NCBI RefSeq assembly: GCF_007993755.1
Contig: NZ_CP042467.1
Location: forward strand, 2,504,001 to 2,568,000
Source: Microvenator marinus
Lineage (GTDB): Bacteria; Myxococcota_A; Bradymonadia; Bradymonadales; Bradymonadaceae
Length of the DNA stretch: 64,000 bases
Direction: 5' to 3'
How positions within the stretch are numbered: position 1 is the first letter of the stretch; each line of letters opens with the position of its first letter. Under the pieces are notes generated by a model. That model was not told the origin of the DNA and made no database searches. It saw only the letters and a program-made list of their open reading frames with translations. This document shows, in pieces, positions 14,810 through 62,891 of this stretch. Both the position numbers and the translations under genes were made by a program.

Positions 14810-15211
14810 ATGGATGAGCTCAAAATCACCACCGAATTCGATGTCCCTCCAGAACAGGTCTACAAGGCCTGGCTTAGCTCCAAACTACATTCTGAAATGA
14901 CCGGTGTGGCTTGCGAGATTTCGGGGAAGGTTGGCGGCAAGTTTCGTGCGGGAGACGGCTACATCGAGGGCGTCACCGTGGAGCTCGAGCCAAATCGCCG
15001 AATCGTCCAGAAGTGGCGCTCCAAAGACTTCCCCGCGGATGCACCCGATTCCACGGTGGAGATCTTGCTCTTCCCTATCGATGATGACGGCTGCCTCTTC
15101 CAACTCTTCCACACGGGCCTTCCAGCCGGCGACGGCGACGACTACCTCGAGGGCTGGGAAGAACACTACCTCGAGCCAATGCGCGAATTCTTTGGAGAAT
15201 TCGAATACTAG
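14810..15211 (+). CDS. SRPBCC/AHSA1-like domain protein
   Basis: 133 residues forming a single START/Bet v 1-like domain. The opening ITTEFDVPPEQVYKAWLSSKL and the central EPNRRIVQKWRSKDF are typical of the AHSA1 (activator of Hsp90 ATPase) family in bacteria. The end GWEEHYLEPMREFFGE fits the family's closing helix. It follows the membrane kinase by 13 bases, so co-transcription is likely. Members bind small hydrophobic ligands or act as enzyme or chaperone helpers. No specific ligand can be deduced and it carries no membrane segment. Confidence 0.85.
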   Translation: MDELKITTEFDVPPEQVYKAWLSSKLHSEMTGVACEISGKVGGKFRAGDGYIEGVTVELEPNRRIVQKWRSKDFPADAPDSTVEILLFPIDDDGCLFQLFHTGLPAGDGDDYLEGWEEHYLEPMREFFGEFEY

Positions 15212-15229
15212 GTCTGCTAGAATCCTCGA

Positions 15230-16672
15230 ATGCAGATCTTCAAGTTAAGCGCGGAACTCTCGTCCGAAGCCATCGGTATTGTGGCCTCCGAGGTGGAAAA
15301 ACGCCTCGAGGTGCCTCTCCGGGCGGCTGATATCGCTGCGACCACGGGTCTCCCTTTAGAGACAACTCGCGAAGCACTCGTCTCGTTGGCACTCCGAAAC
15401 CGGGCGACGATCACCGAGATTGGTGCCGATACAGCCTATATTTTCAAGAAGGCCACTCCGAGCGGACGACGACGCCTGGGCCCCAAGGTTCGCGTCGCCC
15501 TAAGTTATGTGGCGGACCTCTTTACAAGCCAACTCAGCTACCTGATCGGCCTCGGAATCCTGATCGGCCCGGCATTTGTGGGGGCACGCATGGTTGAGCT
15601 TGGGCTCGAAGGCGACCTCTTCTACCTCATTGGTGGTGGCACCCTGTGTTTCGCCGCGGTGGCTCTCATCCTGAAGCTCGTTGTTCGAAGTATCTCCGTT
15701 GTGCTGCCACCGCTAGTCTTGGCCGGGATTGCGCTCGGCTGGGAAAGGTGGACGGCCGAAGACCTCTACTGGATACCCCTGGCAGTTTTGGTGGCAATCG
15801 GACTGCAGATCGAGGTTTTGCGAAACTACCGAAAGCTTCGCCCACAAGACCCAGTGGCCCTCTTCCTATGGGGGCGAGCGTTCACCTCGCCGGTAAGTGA
15901 ACTCAAGCGAGTCGTGGATTTGATTCGTGCTCAAAATGGCGTGATAACGACCGCTGATCTAGTCCGCGTTTTTGGCTGGAGTCTCGATCACGCATCTGAA
16001 CAGCTCTCGGAAGTCATTGCCGAGTACGGCGGAGATGTGGCGGTAGACGAAGACGGCCATCTGCACGTCTGGTTCGAGGAGCTCTCGCGCGCCGAGGAAA
16101 AGGCTGAGGTTCCAGAGGCAGCGTGGGCTCGCGAGACCTCGCCGCCCGGACCTTTTGAAGGCCTGGACTTGCGTTGGGTGAGTGCGGCTAGCGTTGCGTG
16201 CTGGTTGGGAATCGTGGCTTCGCCCTTCAACCCGGCCTATATCAATTTTGTAGCCGACCTCGATTTTACGCTGAGCGGCATTCCGTTCATCTTGCGTTTT
16301 ATCTTCGCCGGCTTCTGCGCGTTCCCGCTCATGCTCTACTTCGGACGAATCGTCTTGAACCTGATCGAGCGCGATGACTTTAAGAAGCGGCGCAGGTTTT
16401 TGGAGCAGCTAGAATACGCGACCAAACACGCGAGCGGCTCCTTTGTGGGCCTCGACAAGTTCACCAATCAAGAGCTTGTGGAGTTCGGCGCCGAGATCGA
16501 CCACGAAAAAGGCGTACAAGGGTCAATCTGGGTCAGCTTCCCGGAGTTGACCCGTAGAGGAGGGCTTCGTCCTCCACAGATGAACGCAGCCTGGTTTGAG
16601 CAAAACCAAGTCTTAGAAAACCCGACAGAAGAAAGACAAACTGAAGTCGCAGAAGCGCATGCGCGGACATAA
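15230..16672 (+). CDS. Multi-pass membrane protein with N-terminal winged-helix-like segment, unknown function
   Basis: 480 residues, last gene of the kinase run. Residues 1-75 look like a compact helix-turn-helix (EVEKRLEVPLRAADIAATTG, LETTREALVSLAL). Four to five hydrophobic segments follow (about 95-190). A cytoplasmic helical region comes next, with a second HTH-like unit (VVDLIRAQNGVITTADLVRV). A final pair of hydrophobic segments sits near 325-375. The tail is polar. Repeated winged-helix-like elements on the cytoplasmic side suggest protein contacts or membrane-tethered regulation. I recognise no family and propose no function. It starts 18 bases after the AHSA1-like gene. Confidence 0.7.
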   Translation: MQIFKLSAELSSEAIGIVASEVEKRLEVPLRAADIAATTGLPLETTREALVSLALRNRATITEIGADTAYIFKKATPSGRRRLGPKVRVALSYVADLFTSQLSYLIGLGILIGPAFVGARMVELGLEGDLFYLIGGGTLCFAAVALILKLVVRSISVVLPPLVLAGIALGWERWTAEDLYWIPLAVLVAIGLQIEVLRNYRKLRPQDPVALFLWGRAFTSPVSELKRVVDLIRAQNGVITTADLVRVFGWSLDHASEQLSEVIAEYGGDVAVDEDGHLHVWFEELSRAEEKAEVPEAAWARETSPPGPFEGLDLRWVSAASVACWLGIVASPFNPAYINFVADLDFTLSGIPFILRFIFAGFCAFPLMLYFGRIVLNLIERDDFKKRRRFLEQLEYATKHASGSFVGLDKFTNQELVEFGAEIDHEKGVQGSIWVSFPELTRRGGLRPPQMNAAWFEQNQVLENPTEERQTEVAEAHART

Positions 16673-56760: not shown

Positions 56761-57375
56761 ATGAAGAAAACGTTGATACTTTTTAGTGCTGGGCTCGTGC
56801 TCGGATTTGTATTCTCCCGAGCTGAGGGACAGTCGCCTCCAGAGGATATGGACGAGGTGACGCGTCAATCCAACGCCCAACGCATCGCCACCAACAAGGC
56901 GGGCATGCTTGTGCTCGGTGGCTGGGCTCTGACGAATATAGGGGTTGGCACCGCTGGGTACCTGCTTTCCGAAGACGATGAGTGGCGATATTTCCATCAG
57001 ATGAACGCGGGCTGGAATATCGTTAACTTGGCCATCGCCACGTTTGGATACCTTGGAGAGGCAGGCAAGGAGCCGTCGGGGTTCAATTGGCTAGAAACAA
57101 TTCAAGAGGGCGAGTTCATGCAAAAGGCGTTATTGCTTAACGCCGGTCTGGACGTTGGATATATGGCCCTTGGCGGGCTGCTCTGGCAGAAGGGGCATAG
57201 CGAAGATAGCCCGCGCTTTGTGGGCTACGGGCAATCCTTAATCGTCCAGGGCGCATTCCTTATGGTCTTCGACCTCACGTTATTCGCCTTAAATCATCGC
57301 ATTTCCGCCGATTATATGATGATGCTTTCACCGAACGAGAATGGTGGACAGATTAGCGTTCTTGGGACGTTTTGA
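56761..57375 (+). CDS. Small integral membrane protein, possibly DUF6992-like
   Basis: 204 residues. The ATG at 56761 opens a hydrophobic segment (MKKTLILFSAGLVLGFVFSR), which may be a signal peptide ending near AEGQ. Later helices contain MLVLGGWALTNIGVGTAGYL, NAGWNIVNLAIATFGYLG, LNAGLDVGYMALGGLLW and a final segment. I recall DUF6992 proteins with a similar GGWA-N-G opening, but with limited certainty. The frame continues upstream to 56650, which is not chosen because it runs through the promoter region. The stop overlaps the convergent heptad-repeat gene by 23 bases. Confidence 0.65.
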   Translation: MKKTLILFSAGLVLGFVFSRAEGQSPPEDMDEVTRQSNAQRIATNKAGMLVLGGWALTNIGVGTAGYLLSEDDEWRYFHQMNAGWNIVNLAIATFGYLGEAGKEPSGFNWLETIQEGEFMQKALLLNAGLDVGYMALGGLLWQKGHSEDSPRFVGYGQSLIVQGAFLMVFDLTLFALNHRISADYMMMLSPNENGGQISVLGTF

Positions 57376-58300
57376 ACTTTCGAAACTCTTCCCGCAACTC
57401 GTCTAAGGCAGCCTTTGTCGCAGCTAGCTCGGCCTTTGTCGCAGCTAGCTCGGCCTTTGTCGCAGCTAGCTCGGCCTTTGTCGCAGCTAGCTCGGCCTTT
57501 GTCGCAGCTAGCTCGGCCTTTGTCGCAGCTAGCTCGGCCTTTGTCGCAGCTAGCTCGGCCTCGGTCGCCGCCAACTTCTCCCTAGTGAGCCGGTGCGCCT
57601 CAAGTTCGGCGTCAATATCGGCGAACTCTTCACGCATCGCCTGAACGAGGCTGAAGGCGCGCACTTTGTCCACGTTCTTGTCATTATCCCCGATTTTCAT
57701 CATGTCCTCCATTAGCTGTTTCTTGGATTCAACTCTAAGGTTTTTGGTCCGCAATAGCAACTCCAACGAATCGACGAAATCCTCGCCGCTACTTGGAATG
57801 CGCGCAGATCGGCGCAGCCACTCGTACCGCGGAACGTTTGGCAGTTCGGTGGTGACAATGAGTAAAATGGGGCCAAACTCCGGTGGTCCAAAACGCCAAA
57901 TTCCTGGTGTACCGGTGCCATGAAAAAAGTGGGGGGTCCGAAGAATGTCCGTAGGTTTTCGGTAGCACACAATGACCATGGCAGGCGCAAATGGATGGGG
58001 CCGATCCTTGATACGAATCGAGGCAAACCTCTCAAGAGCGGTCGCGAGCTTTAGCCAACTCTTCGCAATGTCGACGAATCCTGGGGCGTCTGAAAGGTGC
58101 TCCACCAGAACTTCGCGCTGGGAAAGGTAGAGCGCCAGATCCCCCCAAAACGTGATGGGTGAGTTCGAGGTGAATGAAGCATTTACGCGGCGGCGGCCCT
58201 TTTTGGTGTGGGTTGAAAGCTCTGGGATAAAGGCTCGAAGAATCGCCAAAAACCAGAACTGATGCGGATATCTTATATCTAAGTTGTTTAAGTCTGACAT
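57353..58300 (-). CDS. Protein of unknown function with a perfect heptad-repeat tail
   Basis: 315 residues. The first ~240 residues form a compact domain (YPHQFWFLAILRAFIPELST, FVDSLELLLRTKNLRVESKK). I see no confident family; a distant link to Rpn/PD-(D/E)XK-type proteins is only a guess. Then come eight heptads, AATEAEL, six AATKAEL and AATKAAL (about residues 240-295), predicted to form a rigid coiled coil. At DNA level the tail is a run of near-identical 21-base units (57421-57567), typical of recent slippage expansion. The C-terminus is basic and charged. It overlaps the convergent membrane-protein gene by 23 bases. Confidence 0.7.
   Translation of the reverse strand: MSDLNNLDIRYPHQFWFLAILRAFIPELSTHTKKGRRRVNASFTSNSPITFWGDLALYLSQREVLVEHLSDAPGFVDIAKSWLKLATALERFASIRIKDRPHPFAPAMVIVCYRKPTDILRTPHFFHGTGTPGIWRFGPPEFGPILLIVTTELPNVPRYEWLRRSARIPSSGEDFVDSLELLLRTKNLRVESKKQLMEDMMKIGDNDKNVDKVRAFSLVQAMREEFADIDAELEAHRLTREKLAATEAELAATKAELAATKAELAATKAELAATKAELAATKAELAATKAELAATKAALDELREEFRKFKTSQER
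57412..57567 (-). repeat. 21-bp in-frame tandem repeat within the heptad-repeat gene
   Basis: Six perfect copies of a 21-base unit, CAGCTAGCTCGGCCTTTGTC plus G, run from 57421 to 57546, with a degenerate seventh copy at 57547-57567 and a partial copy upstream. Each unit codes one AATKAEL heptad on the minus strand. Copy number is likely to vary between strains. Confidence 0.92.
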
Positions 58301-60161: not shown

Positions 60162-61412
60162 TCAGGGGCCAAGCATACTGATGGGAATGACTTGGATGCC
60201 GTCCTCACGCGTGTAACCGTAGCCAGTTCCGACAATCACCCCTAGCGCCGCAGGCGGCCCACAGCGCTTTTTATCCACTCTCTCGGCAAGGGTTTGCAAC
60301 GACTTGACACCAGCCGGCACCTGCGAAGGTGCCAACTTGACTTCGAAAGCAGCCCAAGTTCCATCTGGTTGCTCGATGATGCAATCCACCTCCAAACCGG
60401 TATTGTCTCGATAATGGCACACCCGAGCCTCCAATGACTGTGCATAAATTCGTAAATCGCGCACGATAAGAGACTCGAAGAACATTCCCATGGTCTTCAA
60501 GTCCTGCAAAAGTTTATGGTGCGTAATCCCAATCGCCGCCGCCGCAAGCGAAGGATCAACAAAATGGCGCTTTGGCGAGTTTCGGAGAATCGATTTCGAC
60601 CTGAGGTGAGGAGACCATGCAGGCTGATCTTCAATCACCATGAGCCTTTCTAGAGCCTGCAAATAGTCTCGCACTGTGTCATGGCTTAAGCTACCACCTG
60701 CTCCACCGGCGTCTTGGGCCAAAGTAGTCATCGCGACCTCAGTTGAGACGTTTCTCGCGAGTGAGTTCATCAAGGCTCCTACCTTGATAGGGTCGCGCGA
60801 TTTTTCATCAACGCGGTGCACATCAGTGCGCCGAATTTCCTCCACATAGGCACGATTGAATCGCTCTGCGGCGGCTGTAGTGATCTCCAAATTTGCAGGC
60901 CAACCGCCCCTACAAATATATTCCGCTAAATCGTTCACGCGAACGCCTGTATCGGCCAAACTTGAAACCCGACCCCCGCTGAGTAGCGACGCCATTGAGA
61001 TATCACCATTAGAGTGACCACTCTCGAACAAAGACATTGGCCTCATTCGCATACGCACCAACCTCCCCGCTCCCGTATGTCTTGTAATGTCGTCTGCGGG
61101 CGCTGCCGAACCCGTCAGAATGAACTGTCCGGGCTTCCCTCTCTCGTCAACCTCTCTACGAATGTGGTTCCAGATCTTTGGTTCGATTTGCCACTCGTCC
61201 AATAGCCTGGGGGAGGCACCATTGAGAACCAGTTTAGGGTCAACATTCAAAGCCATACGCGCGTTTTCATCCGTATCGAGGAAAACCGTGGATTTTGAGT
61301 ACCGCCTAGCCGTCTCAGTTTTCCCGCAAGCTTTTGGTCCTTCTATCACCACCGCTCCAAAGGTCTTGAGCAGATCCTCAAGCTCTTTTTCTACCACTCG
61401 CTCTTTGTACAT
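60162..61412 (-). CDS. DUF4143-type AAA ATPase
   Basis: 416 residues. The N-terminal ATPase has Walker A GPKACGKT (25-32), a Walker B-like RLLDEWQIEP and a sensor-like QFILTGSAAP. The C-terminal DUF4143-like domain has FFESLIVRDLRIYAQSLEA and a nuclease-like DNTGLEVDCIIEQPDGTWAAFEVKL stretch (D...E-x-K) typical of these families. Such ATPases occur in many bacteria, often singly with variable distribution; their function is not settled. A 23-bp tandem repeat array lies 38 bases upstream of its start. Neighbours are unrelated, which suggests a mobile or accessory insertion. Confidence 0.92.
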   Translation of the reverse strand: MYKERVVEKELEDLLKTFGAVVIEGPKACGKTETARRYSKSTVFLDTDENARMALNVDPKLVLNGASPRLLDEWQIEPKIWNHIRREVDERGKPGQFILTGSAAPADDITRHTGAGRLVRMRMRPMSLFESGHSNGDISMASLLSGGRVSSLADTGVRVNDLAEYICRGGWPANLEITTAAAERFNRAYVEEIRRTDVHRVDEKSRDPIKVGALMNSLARNVSTEVAMTTLAQDAGGAGGSLSHDTVRDYLQALERLMVIEDQPAWSPHLRSKSILRNSPKRHFVDPSLAAAAIGITHHKLLQDLKTMGMFFESLIVRDLRIYAQSLEARVCHYRDNTGLEVDCIIEQPDGTWAAFEVKLAPSQVPAGVKSLQTLAERVDKKRCGPPAALGVIVGTGYGYTREDGIQVIPISMLGP

Positions 61413-61450
61413 TTTGCCTCACATTCGGTCGCCATCAACAACAGAATAGC

Positions 61451-61537
61451 AGAATTGTAACGCTTTCAGTAGTGAAGTTGTAACGCTTTCAGTAGTGAAA
61501 TTGTAACGCTTTCAGTAGTGAAATTGTAACGCTTTCA
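61451..61537. repeat. 23-bp tandem direct repeats upstream of the DUF4143 ATPase
   Basis: Three full copies (61451-61473, 61474-61496, 61497-61519) and one partial copy (61520-61537) of a 23-base unit containing TTGTAACGCTTTCAGTAGTG. Only the second copy differs, at one base. The array lies between the divergent ATPase start (61412) and the VWA lipoprotein start (61578), so it could control either. There are no spacers, so it is not a CRISPR array. Confidence 0.9.
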
Positions 61538-61577
61538 GATGGTGTGTTTGGCTGAAGTCTGGGTTAGTCTTGCCGCC

Positions 61578-62891
61578 ATGCAGTCTTGGAACGTGAACAA
61601 TCTTCGCACGCGCAACTCGCATCACAAGCGAACCAAGCTCGCTTGTACGCTTATGCTCCTGCTTGGATGTGGGACGGACGCCCAAACTCCGGCGGAGCCT
61701 GGGCCCGAGGCCCCGGTTAAATTGGCCGACACGGATGGGGATGGCATCTTTGATGCTACCGAAACCATCCTTGGGACAAACCCAGATTCGCCGTCCTCAG
61801 TGTGCGTGACGGAGTCATGGCAGGCGGGCCTTCAAACCCGACCTGTGGACATCATCTTCGTAATCGATAACTCGGGCTCGATGCGTGAAGAGATTGCGGC
61901 GATTCGGGCCAATATCAACACGAACTTCGCGCAGGTTATGGAGAACGCTGGGGTCGACTACCGTGTGATTGTGATCTCGTCTCACGGTGAAGGAAACGCG
62001 TTTGACGCCGATATCTGTGTGGAAGCCCCCCTTTCGGGGACGCAGTGCAATCCTGTTCCCGACACTCCTGCAAACTCAGAACGCCTTTTTCATTACGACA
62101 CTCGCATAGGCAGCGATGATTCGTTGCGCCGCGTCCTGAGCACCTATTCGCAATCAGACCCGCATGGGCTCGCACCAGGAGGTTGGGGAGGCTGGCTTCG
62201 CGAGAACGCGTTCAAAGTCTTCATCGAGTTTACTGACGATGACTCCTCGATGAGCGCCCTGGCTTTCGACGAGGCGTTGCTGGCTCTGGCTGGCTCTCCT
62301 TTTGGAACGGCGGGTTCTAGAAACTACGTCTTTCATTCTGTAGTCGGGCTCTCACCGAAGGAAACCGCGGCACCCTACGTGCCTGGGGAGCCCCTACAGC
62401 CTTTTGTCTGTGGCACAGCTGAGAACAACGGCGAAGAGTATCAAAGGCTGAGTTTGGTGACGGGTGGACTTAGGTATCCGGTGTGTGACGCTGAGAGCTA
62501 CAACGCCATTTTTAACGCAGCTGCACTAGAGATTGTTGAGGTCTCTTCCATCGCCTGCTCACTACCGTTCCTAAGCCCACCCGAGGGCTTTCGAATCGAC
62601 GACTCTCGACTGGCCTTTGAGCTTCGTTTGCCGACCTCGGAGTTCACGATCAGCCGAGTCGACTCGGCCTCCTCATGTACCGAACACGCCTTCTACCTGA
62701 GCGACTTCGGCATGGAACTCTGCCCCCAGACTTGCGCTTTGATAAAGGCCGCTCAATCAGGCGAGCTGCGGGCATTGGCAGAGTGTGACGTGCAAACCTG
62801 CGATTCCCCAACCCCCGAAGTCTGCAACGACGGCATCGATAACGACTGCAACGGCTTCACGGACACCCAAGACCTCAACTGCTTCTTGTAG
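61578..62891 (+). CDS. VWA-domain cysteine-rich lipoprotein with MopE-like end motif
   Basis: 437 residues. The signal is TLMLLLGC with cleavage before the cysteine. A thrombospondin-type calcium repeat follows (DTDGDGIFDATETILGTNPD). The von Willebrand A domain starts near residue 90 with the MIDAS motif FVIDNSGSM. The protein ends with CNDGIDNDCNGFTDTQDLNC, a short motif seen in myxobacterial putative metal-binding (MopE-type) proteins. Cysteines along the chain suggest disulfides. It would bind metal-dependent protein ligands outside the cell. The ATG at 61578 follows a longer frame from 61539 that lacks a better signal. Confidence 0.88.
   Translation: MQSWNVNNLRTRNSHHKRTKLACTLMLLLGCGTDAQTPAEPGPEAPVKLADTDGDGIFDATETILGTNPDSPSSVCVTESWQAGLQTRPVDIIFVIDNSGSMREEIAAIRANINTNFAQVMENAGVDYRVIVISSHGEGNAFDADICVEAPLSGTQCNPVPDTPANSERLFHYDTRIGSDDSLRRVLSTYSQSDPHGLAPGGWGGWLRENAFKVFIEFTDDDSSMSALAFDEALLALAGSPFGTAGSRNYVFHSVVGLSPKETAAPYVPGEPLQPFVCGTAENNGEEYQRLSLVTGGLRYPVCDAESYNAIFNAAALEIVEVSSIACSLPFLSPPEGFRIDDSRLAFELRLPTSEFTISRVDSASSCTEHAFYLSDFGMELCPQTCALIKAAQSGELRALAECDVQTCDSPTPEVCNDGIDNDCNGFTDTQDLNCFL

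Follow-up and report, generated by a model that had tools for sequence, protein, structure and literature searches.

In the bacterium Microvenator marinus, the gene of an AAA+ ATPase of the DUF4143 family is preceded by an array of direct repeats with a period of 23 base pairs (bp), and this array is one case of a wide rule for the DUF4143 clade to which the ATPase belongs. The gene lies in a stretch of 64,000 nucleotides (contig NZ_CP042467.1, positions 2,504,001 to 2,568,000), the whole of which is called the window here. Across phyla, members of this clade have upstream a direct-repeat array whose period stays at 23 bp, while the spelling of the repeat is gene-specific and tracks the relatedness of the ATPase proteins. 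Fixed period and gene-specific spelling together suggest that each ATPase may read a private address label of its own and control itself. Judged from sequence, the array is probably a private operator that is bound by its own ATPase via a winged helix and serves autoregulation, most likely repression.

The near-identical 23-base direct repeats that an earlier note had described in the window are borne out. Tandem Repeats Finder reports 3.7 copies with 96% matches and a score of 165, and the four copies differ at a single variable position. The note had placed the array 38 bases before the ATPase gene and 40 before a divergent lipoprotein gene; the placement between the two genes is correct and the distances are revised to 40 bp for the ATPase start codon (61412, minus strand) and 39 bp for the probable ATG of the lipoprotein (61578). 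Copies elsewhere in the genome, a point the note had raised, were not found: a 15-base core of the repeat occurs at four positions of the single 5.85-Mb contig when up to one mismatch is allowed, all of them within the array, and a search of the 64-kb window with up to three mismatches found none outside it.

The identification of the encoded protein as a DUF4143 ATPase, also made in that note, is confirmed by Pfam matches to PF13635 (E value 2.9e-36; 125 bits, cut-off 28.1) and to the AAA_14 family PF13173 (E value 1.9e-11; 44.5 bits, cut-off 27). Pfam gives AAA_14 and DUF4143 only, and no Rep initiator domain. The protein also matches the PADLOC model PDLC04790 of PDC-S01 (E value 8.2e-74), as do all 17 members of an alignment in which it is counted, and is thus a member of the ATPases known as PDC-S01, COG1373 or AAA_14-DUF4143. 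Its AlphaFold2 model has a mean predicted local distance difference test value of 89.7 and a predicted template modelling score of 0.90. In our own reading of this model, the chain would consist of an ATPase, a winged helix at about residues 208-284 and a C-terminal part with the element order of a PD-(D/E)XK fold. Over residues 1-295, which span ATPase, lid and winged helix, the two top-ranking structural matches are archaeal ATPases, 2qen (Z 15.4, root-mean-square deviation 4.0, 251 aligned) and 2fna (Z 14.0, root-mean-square deviation 3.9, 248 aligned), probably members of PF01637. NLR and CED-4 proteins rank after these two, and Orc1/Cdc6 is also among the Foldseek matches, weaker than the archaeal ATPases. 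Unlike 2qen and 2fna, whose matches stop at residue 295, the window protein continues into the PD-(D/E)XK-like domain, and none of the VIA-align matches listed covers this nuclease-like domain by itself. Within a fully supported clade of 46 genes, the Walker residues K31, D72 and E73 are kept in all 46 proteins, and the PD-(D/E)XK-like residues E341, D343 and E357 in 45 and K359 in 44 of them.

A scan of GTDB genomes yielded 23 relatives of the window ATPase (43-62% identical) from Acidimicrobiia, Acidobacteria, Gemmatimonadota, Cyanobium/Synechococcus, Elusimicrobia, Flavobacteriales, Saccharimonadia and others; two of them (L060, L061) are fragments without a gene start. Most of the 23 have upstream direct repeats with a best period of 23 or 46 and with sequences unlike one another. 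Period 23 was then predicted for homologues on plasmids and phages before their upstream DNA was examined, with a stated scope of at least 36% identity to the window ATPase. Sixteen loci, some of them below 36% identity, were tested: Collinsella (3), Bacteroides (2), Prosthecochloris, Actinomyces, Lentilactobacillus, Mycobacterium riyadhense, Rhizobium, Azotobacter, Spartinivicinus and four gut phage scaffolds. In the 180 bp upstream, the best period was 23 in 15 of the 16 and 46 in one; locus L263 gives 46 in 180 bp and 45 in 160 bp. These 16 were part of 31 plasmid and phage matches, of which 6 more, all below 31% identity, were examined and 9 were left out. The six more distant plasmid homologues show a best period of 23 in one case and of 22 in three (one weak), and two lack a clear period.

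The fully supported clade, to which 13 genes of the prediction test belong, has a best period of 23, 46 or 69 in 43 of its 46 genes. For a later set, 20 fetched regions were combined with viral contigs and with genomes of two phyla, 150 from that of G059 (Longimicrobiales locus L041) and 148 from that of G070 (Flavobacteriales locus L052). It comprises 66 genes from 67 loci after two duplicates were dropped, and two of the 66 (L292, L311) had been seen earlier; 52 of them have a best period of 23, 46 or 69. The proposal of the earlier note, an iteron-like array with self-regulation, is partly supported: arrays of the same period stand upstream of nearly all clade genes.

The repeats were set against controls in a survey of 159 distinct DUF4143 genes, all preceded by 170 bp of sequence or more; for each of them the best self-match period in the 160 bp before the start was determined. 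The most frequent periods were 23 (34 genes), 32 (18), 33 (16) and 22 (10). A high repeat score, defined as 13 or more, was reached by 59 of the 159 upstream regions. Among the controls it was reached downstream in 6 of 151 cases, upstream of neighbouring genes in 6 of 183, and in 0.25% of 1590 dinucleotide-preserving shuffles. Binomial p values against the shuffles, in which relatedness is ignored, are about 1e-25 for period 23, 5e-11 for 32, 5e-10 for 33 and 0.009 for 22. Two of the 183 neighbour-gene controls have a high score at period 23, and these may have their array in common with a divergent DUF4143 gene. The repeat period agrees with protein phylogeny: 41 changes of period class are required on a FastTree tree built from the 159 proteins, compared with a mean of 75 for shuffled labels, and none of 200 shuffles was as low. 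Inverted repeats are enriched as well: a score of at least 10 is reached upstream of 26 of 184 DUF4143 genes, compared with 6 of 736 shuffles and 1 of 183 control genes. Terminators are to be expected downstream, and there 10 of 178 regions reach this score.

The private nature of the spelling is seen in genome G134, where one 4.47-Mb contig holds seven clade paralogues that are 52-70% identical to one another and have seven different cores. All seven have a 23-bp lattice upstream, with 26-36 of 46 positions alike in the best lag-23 stretch, which was chosen post hoc; in the automatic call, lag 23 is not the top period for every one of them. Among 31 clade genes, array similarity correlates with protein identity (Mantel r 0.43, 0 of 2000 permutations), and r is 0.28 for the 457 pairs below 80% identity. 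The same core accompanies proteins that are 56-68% identical in an Endomicrobium, in Flavobacteriales and in a Saccharimonadia bacterium. Thirty non-redundant arrays have a weak common skeleton in a single orientation to the gene, and do so better than sets that were mirrored, reverse-complemented or permuted (0 of 40 for each kind). Since the two skeleton alignments, the first and the non-redundant one, settle on different registers, only the existence and the polarity of the skeleton are claimed. In all four genomes tested, the array core is exclusive to the array.

Six DUF4143 genes are present in the genome of the window, and among them the architecture recurs while the letters differ. One of the others is preceded by an unlike array, with a 22-bp unit in about four copies, which stops just 5' of a TATAAT. 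In three, a dyad-like element occurs twice at an interval of 61 or 74 bp, and the remaining gene shows a weak repeat of 32 bp. A single 23-mer common to DUF4143 genes was rejected, the core being private to its array and the five other genes having other repeats or none that is clear. The exact 23-mer, which the earlier note had proposed to look for beside other DUF4143 genes, is not shared with them: it is the period that is conserved.

DUF4143 clades outside the 23-bp group show spacings of 22, 32-33 or 60-74 bp, or palindromes. One such clade (L010, L026, L027, L030, L213 and others) has TGACTATTTT-like elements about 32 bp apart, partly inverted, over putative promoters, and the genes L193, L194, L198, L200, L201 and L205-L207 have no direct repeats and carry long palindromes at or beside a putative -10 box. 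In a sample of 25 PF13635 genes from Bacteroidota, period 23 was best in one, at a chance-level score of 6, and five reached a score of at least 13 at 32-34 bp. On plasmid pTT27 of Thermus thermophilus HB27, the DUF4143 gene at 14854-16074 of locus L266 is probably TT_P0211 and has a short palindrome, TGAATGACTATCATTCA, just before its start; a 23-bp array is absent there, the best lag being 46 with a score of 8.5. TT_P0211 is reported to be 6.6-fold up in plasmid-bearing cells with Argonaute (PMC4406477).

PF09820 (AAA-ATPase_like), a second family that combines an ATPase with a nuclease-like domain, was considered for comparison. None of 25 PF09820 genes has a best period of 22 or 23, and the array as a general trait of ATPase/PD-(D/E)XK genes was rejected on this count. 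Six of the 25 score at least 13 at other periods; in one case the score stems from a run of N, and in another (L223) the open reading frame is of doubtful family membership. Some genomes are very rich in such ATPase/nuclease-like genes: G048 holds 17 DUF4143 matches, and PF09820 matches number 24 in G048 and 39 in G034. Many PF09820 paralogues in G034, G040 and G048 (L226, L228, L231, L232, L234, L243 and others) have one common upstream inverted repeat around ACTCGCC / GGCGAGTT, whose letters are common to the paralogues, unlike those of the private DUF4143 arrays.

The array follows the ATPase gene across phyla with changing neighbours and is therefore taken to belong to that gene. Its reader must then travel and change together with the gene, which makes the winged-helix ATPase the obvious candidate. 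In several loci the repeats run, by eye, into TATAAT-like -10 boxes. The array thus lies close to the -35 side of putative promoters or covers it, a placement that suggests that the gene's transcription is what it controls, with repression as the likeliest mode. Each ATPase probably recognises its own repeat unit through the winged helix, and AAA+ protomers would sit side by side on the array, one per about 23 bp or about two helical turns. Repeat intervals of 22-23 and 32-33 bp come near two and three turns of DNA, which would suit protomers bound along a single face of it. Bound over or beside the -35 region, such protomers would set, and most likely repress, the expression of their own gene. 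As protein and array change together, paralogues in one cell would be insulated from each other. Engagement of the ATPase elsewhere or a change of its nucleotide state, for example upon phage attack, would free the operator and induce the gene. The array, its uniqueness in the genome, the clade-wide period, its conservation over many phyla, the gene-specific spelling and the conserved ATPase and nuclease-like residues are seen directly in the sequences; the ATPase as reader, the repression and the trigger are what we infer from these patterns.

Several observations weigh against this reading. A consensus scan of the stretch between the window array and the ATPase gene gave no sigma-70 promoter, and a fixed distance between array and -10 box, sought by eye, was not constant among loci. 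The winged-helix region correlates with the array sequence no better than other domains do. The three genes of the 46-gene clade that miss the period are all from Acidimicrobiia, with lag 23 second in one of them. In the later set 14 of the 66 genes miss, and only four of these are accounted for by late-called starts: in L323, L324, L332 and L334 the top period further upstream is 23 and the start codon was called too late. Finally, in three plasmid loci from Collinsella and Rhizobium (L250, L251, L263) the ATPase gene is immediately preceded, on its own strand, by a small helix-turn-helix gene, so another reader is possible there.

The best-surviving alternative is that the array is the working site of the ATPase/nuclease, comparable to the iterons of an initiator or the centromere repeats of a partition protein: the protein would assemble there to sense, mark or process DNA, not to regulate its own gene, and the promoter position would be secondary. 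The fold, which resembles Orc1/Cdc6 and oligomeric NLR ATPases, the conserved nuclease-like residues, the helically phased repeats of fixed spacing and the occurrence of the ATPase gene on plasmids, rarely on phages, would all agree with such a role. We nevertheless regard it as unlikely, as the site studied is always the gene's own upstream region and often runs into a -10-like box, the array core was unique in the genome in all four tests, and the genes are mostly chromosomal. Beside the window gene, the list of open reading frames and Pfam revealed neither replication functions nor a regulator gene. The latter finding bears on another alternative, in which a separate regulator, either a host protein or a neighbouring helix-turn-helix protein, binds the array and controls the ATPase gene. 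The small upstream gene of the three plasmid loci speaks for it; the other annotated loci lack such a neighbour and have the array too. A common host regulator can account neither for seven cores in one genome nor for an array that tracks the ATPase sequence across phyla, which leaves this alternative distinctly improbable.

That the array controls the divergent lipoprotein gene, with the ATPase gene adjacent by accident, would fit its position in the window, where it is as near to the one gene as to the other, and is nonetheless highly improbable: in relatives the array stays with the ATPase gene and the other neighbour changes, and the assignment of the array to the lipoprotein was rejected on these grounds. 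Equally implausible are chance tandem duplications without function, which could explain a nearly perfect array such as that of the window by recent slippage and fail on the same period across phyla with unlike sequences and neighbours and, as a general explanation, on the shuffle, downstream and neighbour-gene controls, which lack such periodicity.

The features of the locus are collected in Table 1. The divergent gene is on the opposite strand, as the earlier note had it, and its VWA assignment there is backed by weak family matches only: no Pfam family matches above cut-off, and the VWA-like stretch has weak matches to CglD and MIDAS-adhesin models. As the neighbours of the ATPase gene vary from one annotated locus of the relatives to another, there is no sign that the lipoprotein belongs with the array, of which it is probably a bystander. 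Elsewhere in the window (57411-57568), a 21-bp tandem repeat with 7.5 copies and 98% matches lies inside an open reading frame on the minus strand (57353-58300); it encodes a repeated ELAATKA stretch, likely a coiled coil, in a protein without a Pfam family.

Table 1. Features of the array locus, with coordinates in the window
Feature	Coordinates	Strand	Evidence
DUF4143 ATPase, 416 amino acids: AAA_14, predicted winged helix (about 208-284), PD-(D/E)XK-like C-terminal domain; PADLOC PDC-S01	60162-61412	-	Pfam, PADLOC, AlphaFold2 model, structural matches
Stretch of 40 bp from array to ATPase start	61413-61452	-	Weak TATTCT -10-like box directly after the last repeat (by eye)
Direct-repeat array, period 23 bp, 3.7 copies; proposed private operator of the ATPase gene	61453-61538	.	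Tandem Repeats Finder and a second repeat search; core unique in the genome; same period in the clade
VWA-like lipoprotein with MopE-like C-terminal motif	61578-62891	+	Open reading frame, weak family matches

Iteron plasmids encode an initiator with autorepression, and the direct repeats that it reads span about two helical turns each and lie close to its gene. The arrays described here are alike in repeat length and in their place beside the gene of the proposed reader. They differ in that the window locus showed neither a replication initiator family nor origin features and the genes are mostly chromosomal. We consider it likely that the window ATPase, a member of a large family, regulates itself through an iteron-like operator. 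The nearest case in the literature for autoregulation by direct repeats, searched together with AAA ATPases, is RptR. RptR is a separate 9-kDa repressor of restriction-modification promoters that acts on 9-bp repeats of one conserved sequence (PMC12255303). It represses a defence locus by binding to a series of direct repeats that lie in the promoter and overlap its -10 box, and the operator proposed here would resemble this arrangement; unlike RptR, the reader would here be the AAA+ ATPase, and the repeats are spelt differently from gene to gene.

PDC-S01, an ATPase with a PD-(D/E)XK domain, is reported to rank fourth by frequency among the defence candidates of prokaryotes, and most candidates of this kind still await validation (PMC12988326). 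Its role in phage protection is that of a candidate only. No mention of upstream repeats of DUF4143, COG1373 or PDC-S01 genes was found in the literature searched, which was for the most part that available without subscription and in part only; relative to the PDC-S01 ATPases as described, the private upstream array is a new element. A more far-reaching idea, put forward as speculation with the odds against it, is that DUF4143/PDC-S01 proteins are self-addressed AAA+ nuclease-like proteins on private phased arrays. The occupied array would then act as a sensor: displacement or titration of the protein by an invader, or a block of the promoter, would release an armed ATPase-nuclease and induce it at once. 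If this were true, many mutually insulated copies could coexist in one cell.

For the family as a whole, the conserved private array provides a ready DNA ligand for each PDC-S01 protein, which opens a major family to direct tests of binding, specificity, oligomer geometry and regulation. The distance from protomer to protomer is predicted by how the repeats are spaced (22, 23 or 32-33 bp). Pairs of array and winged helix from many genes would form a data set for a recognition code and may be a source of insulated regulators.
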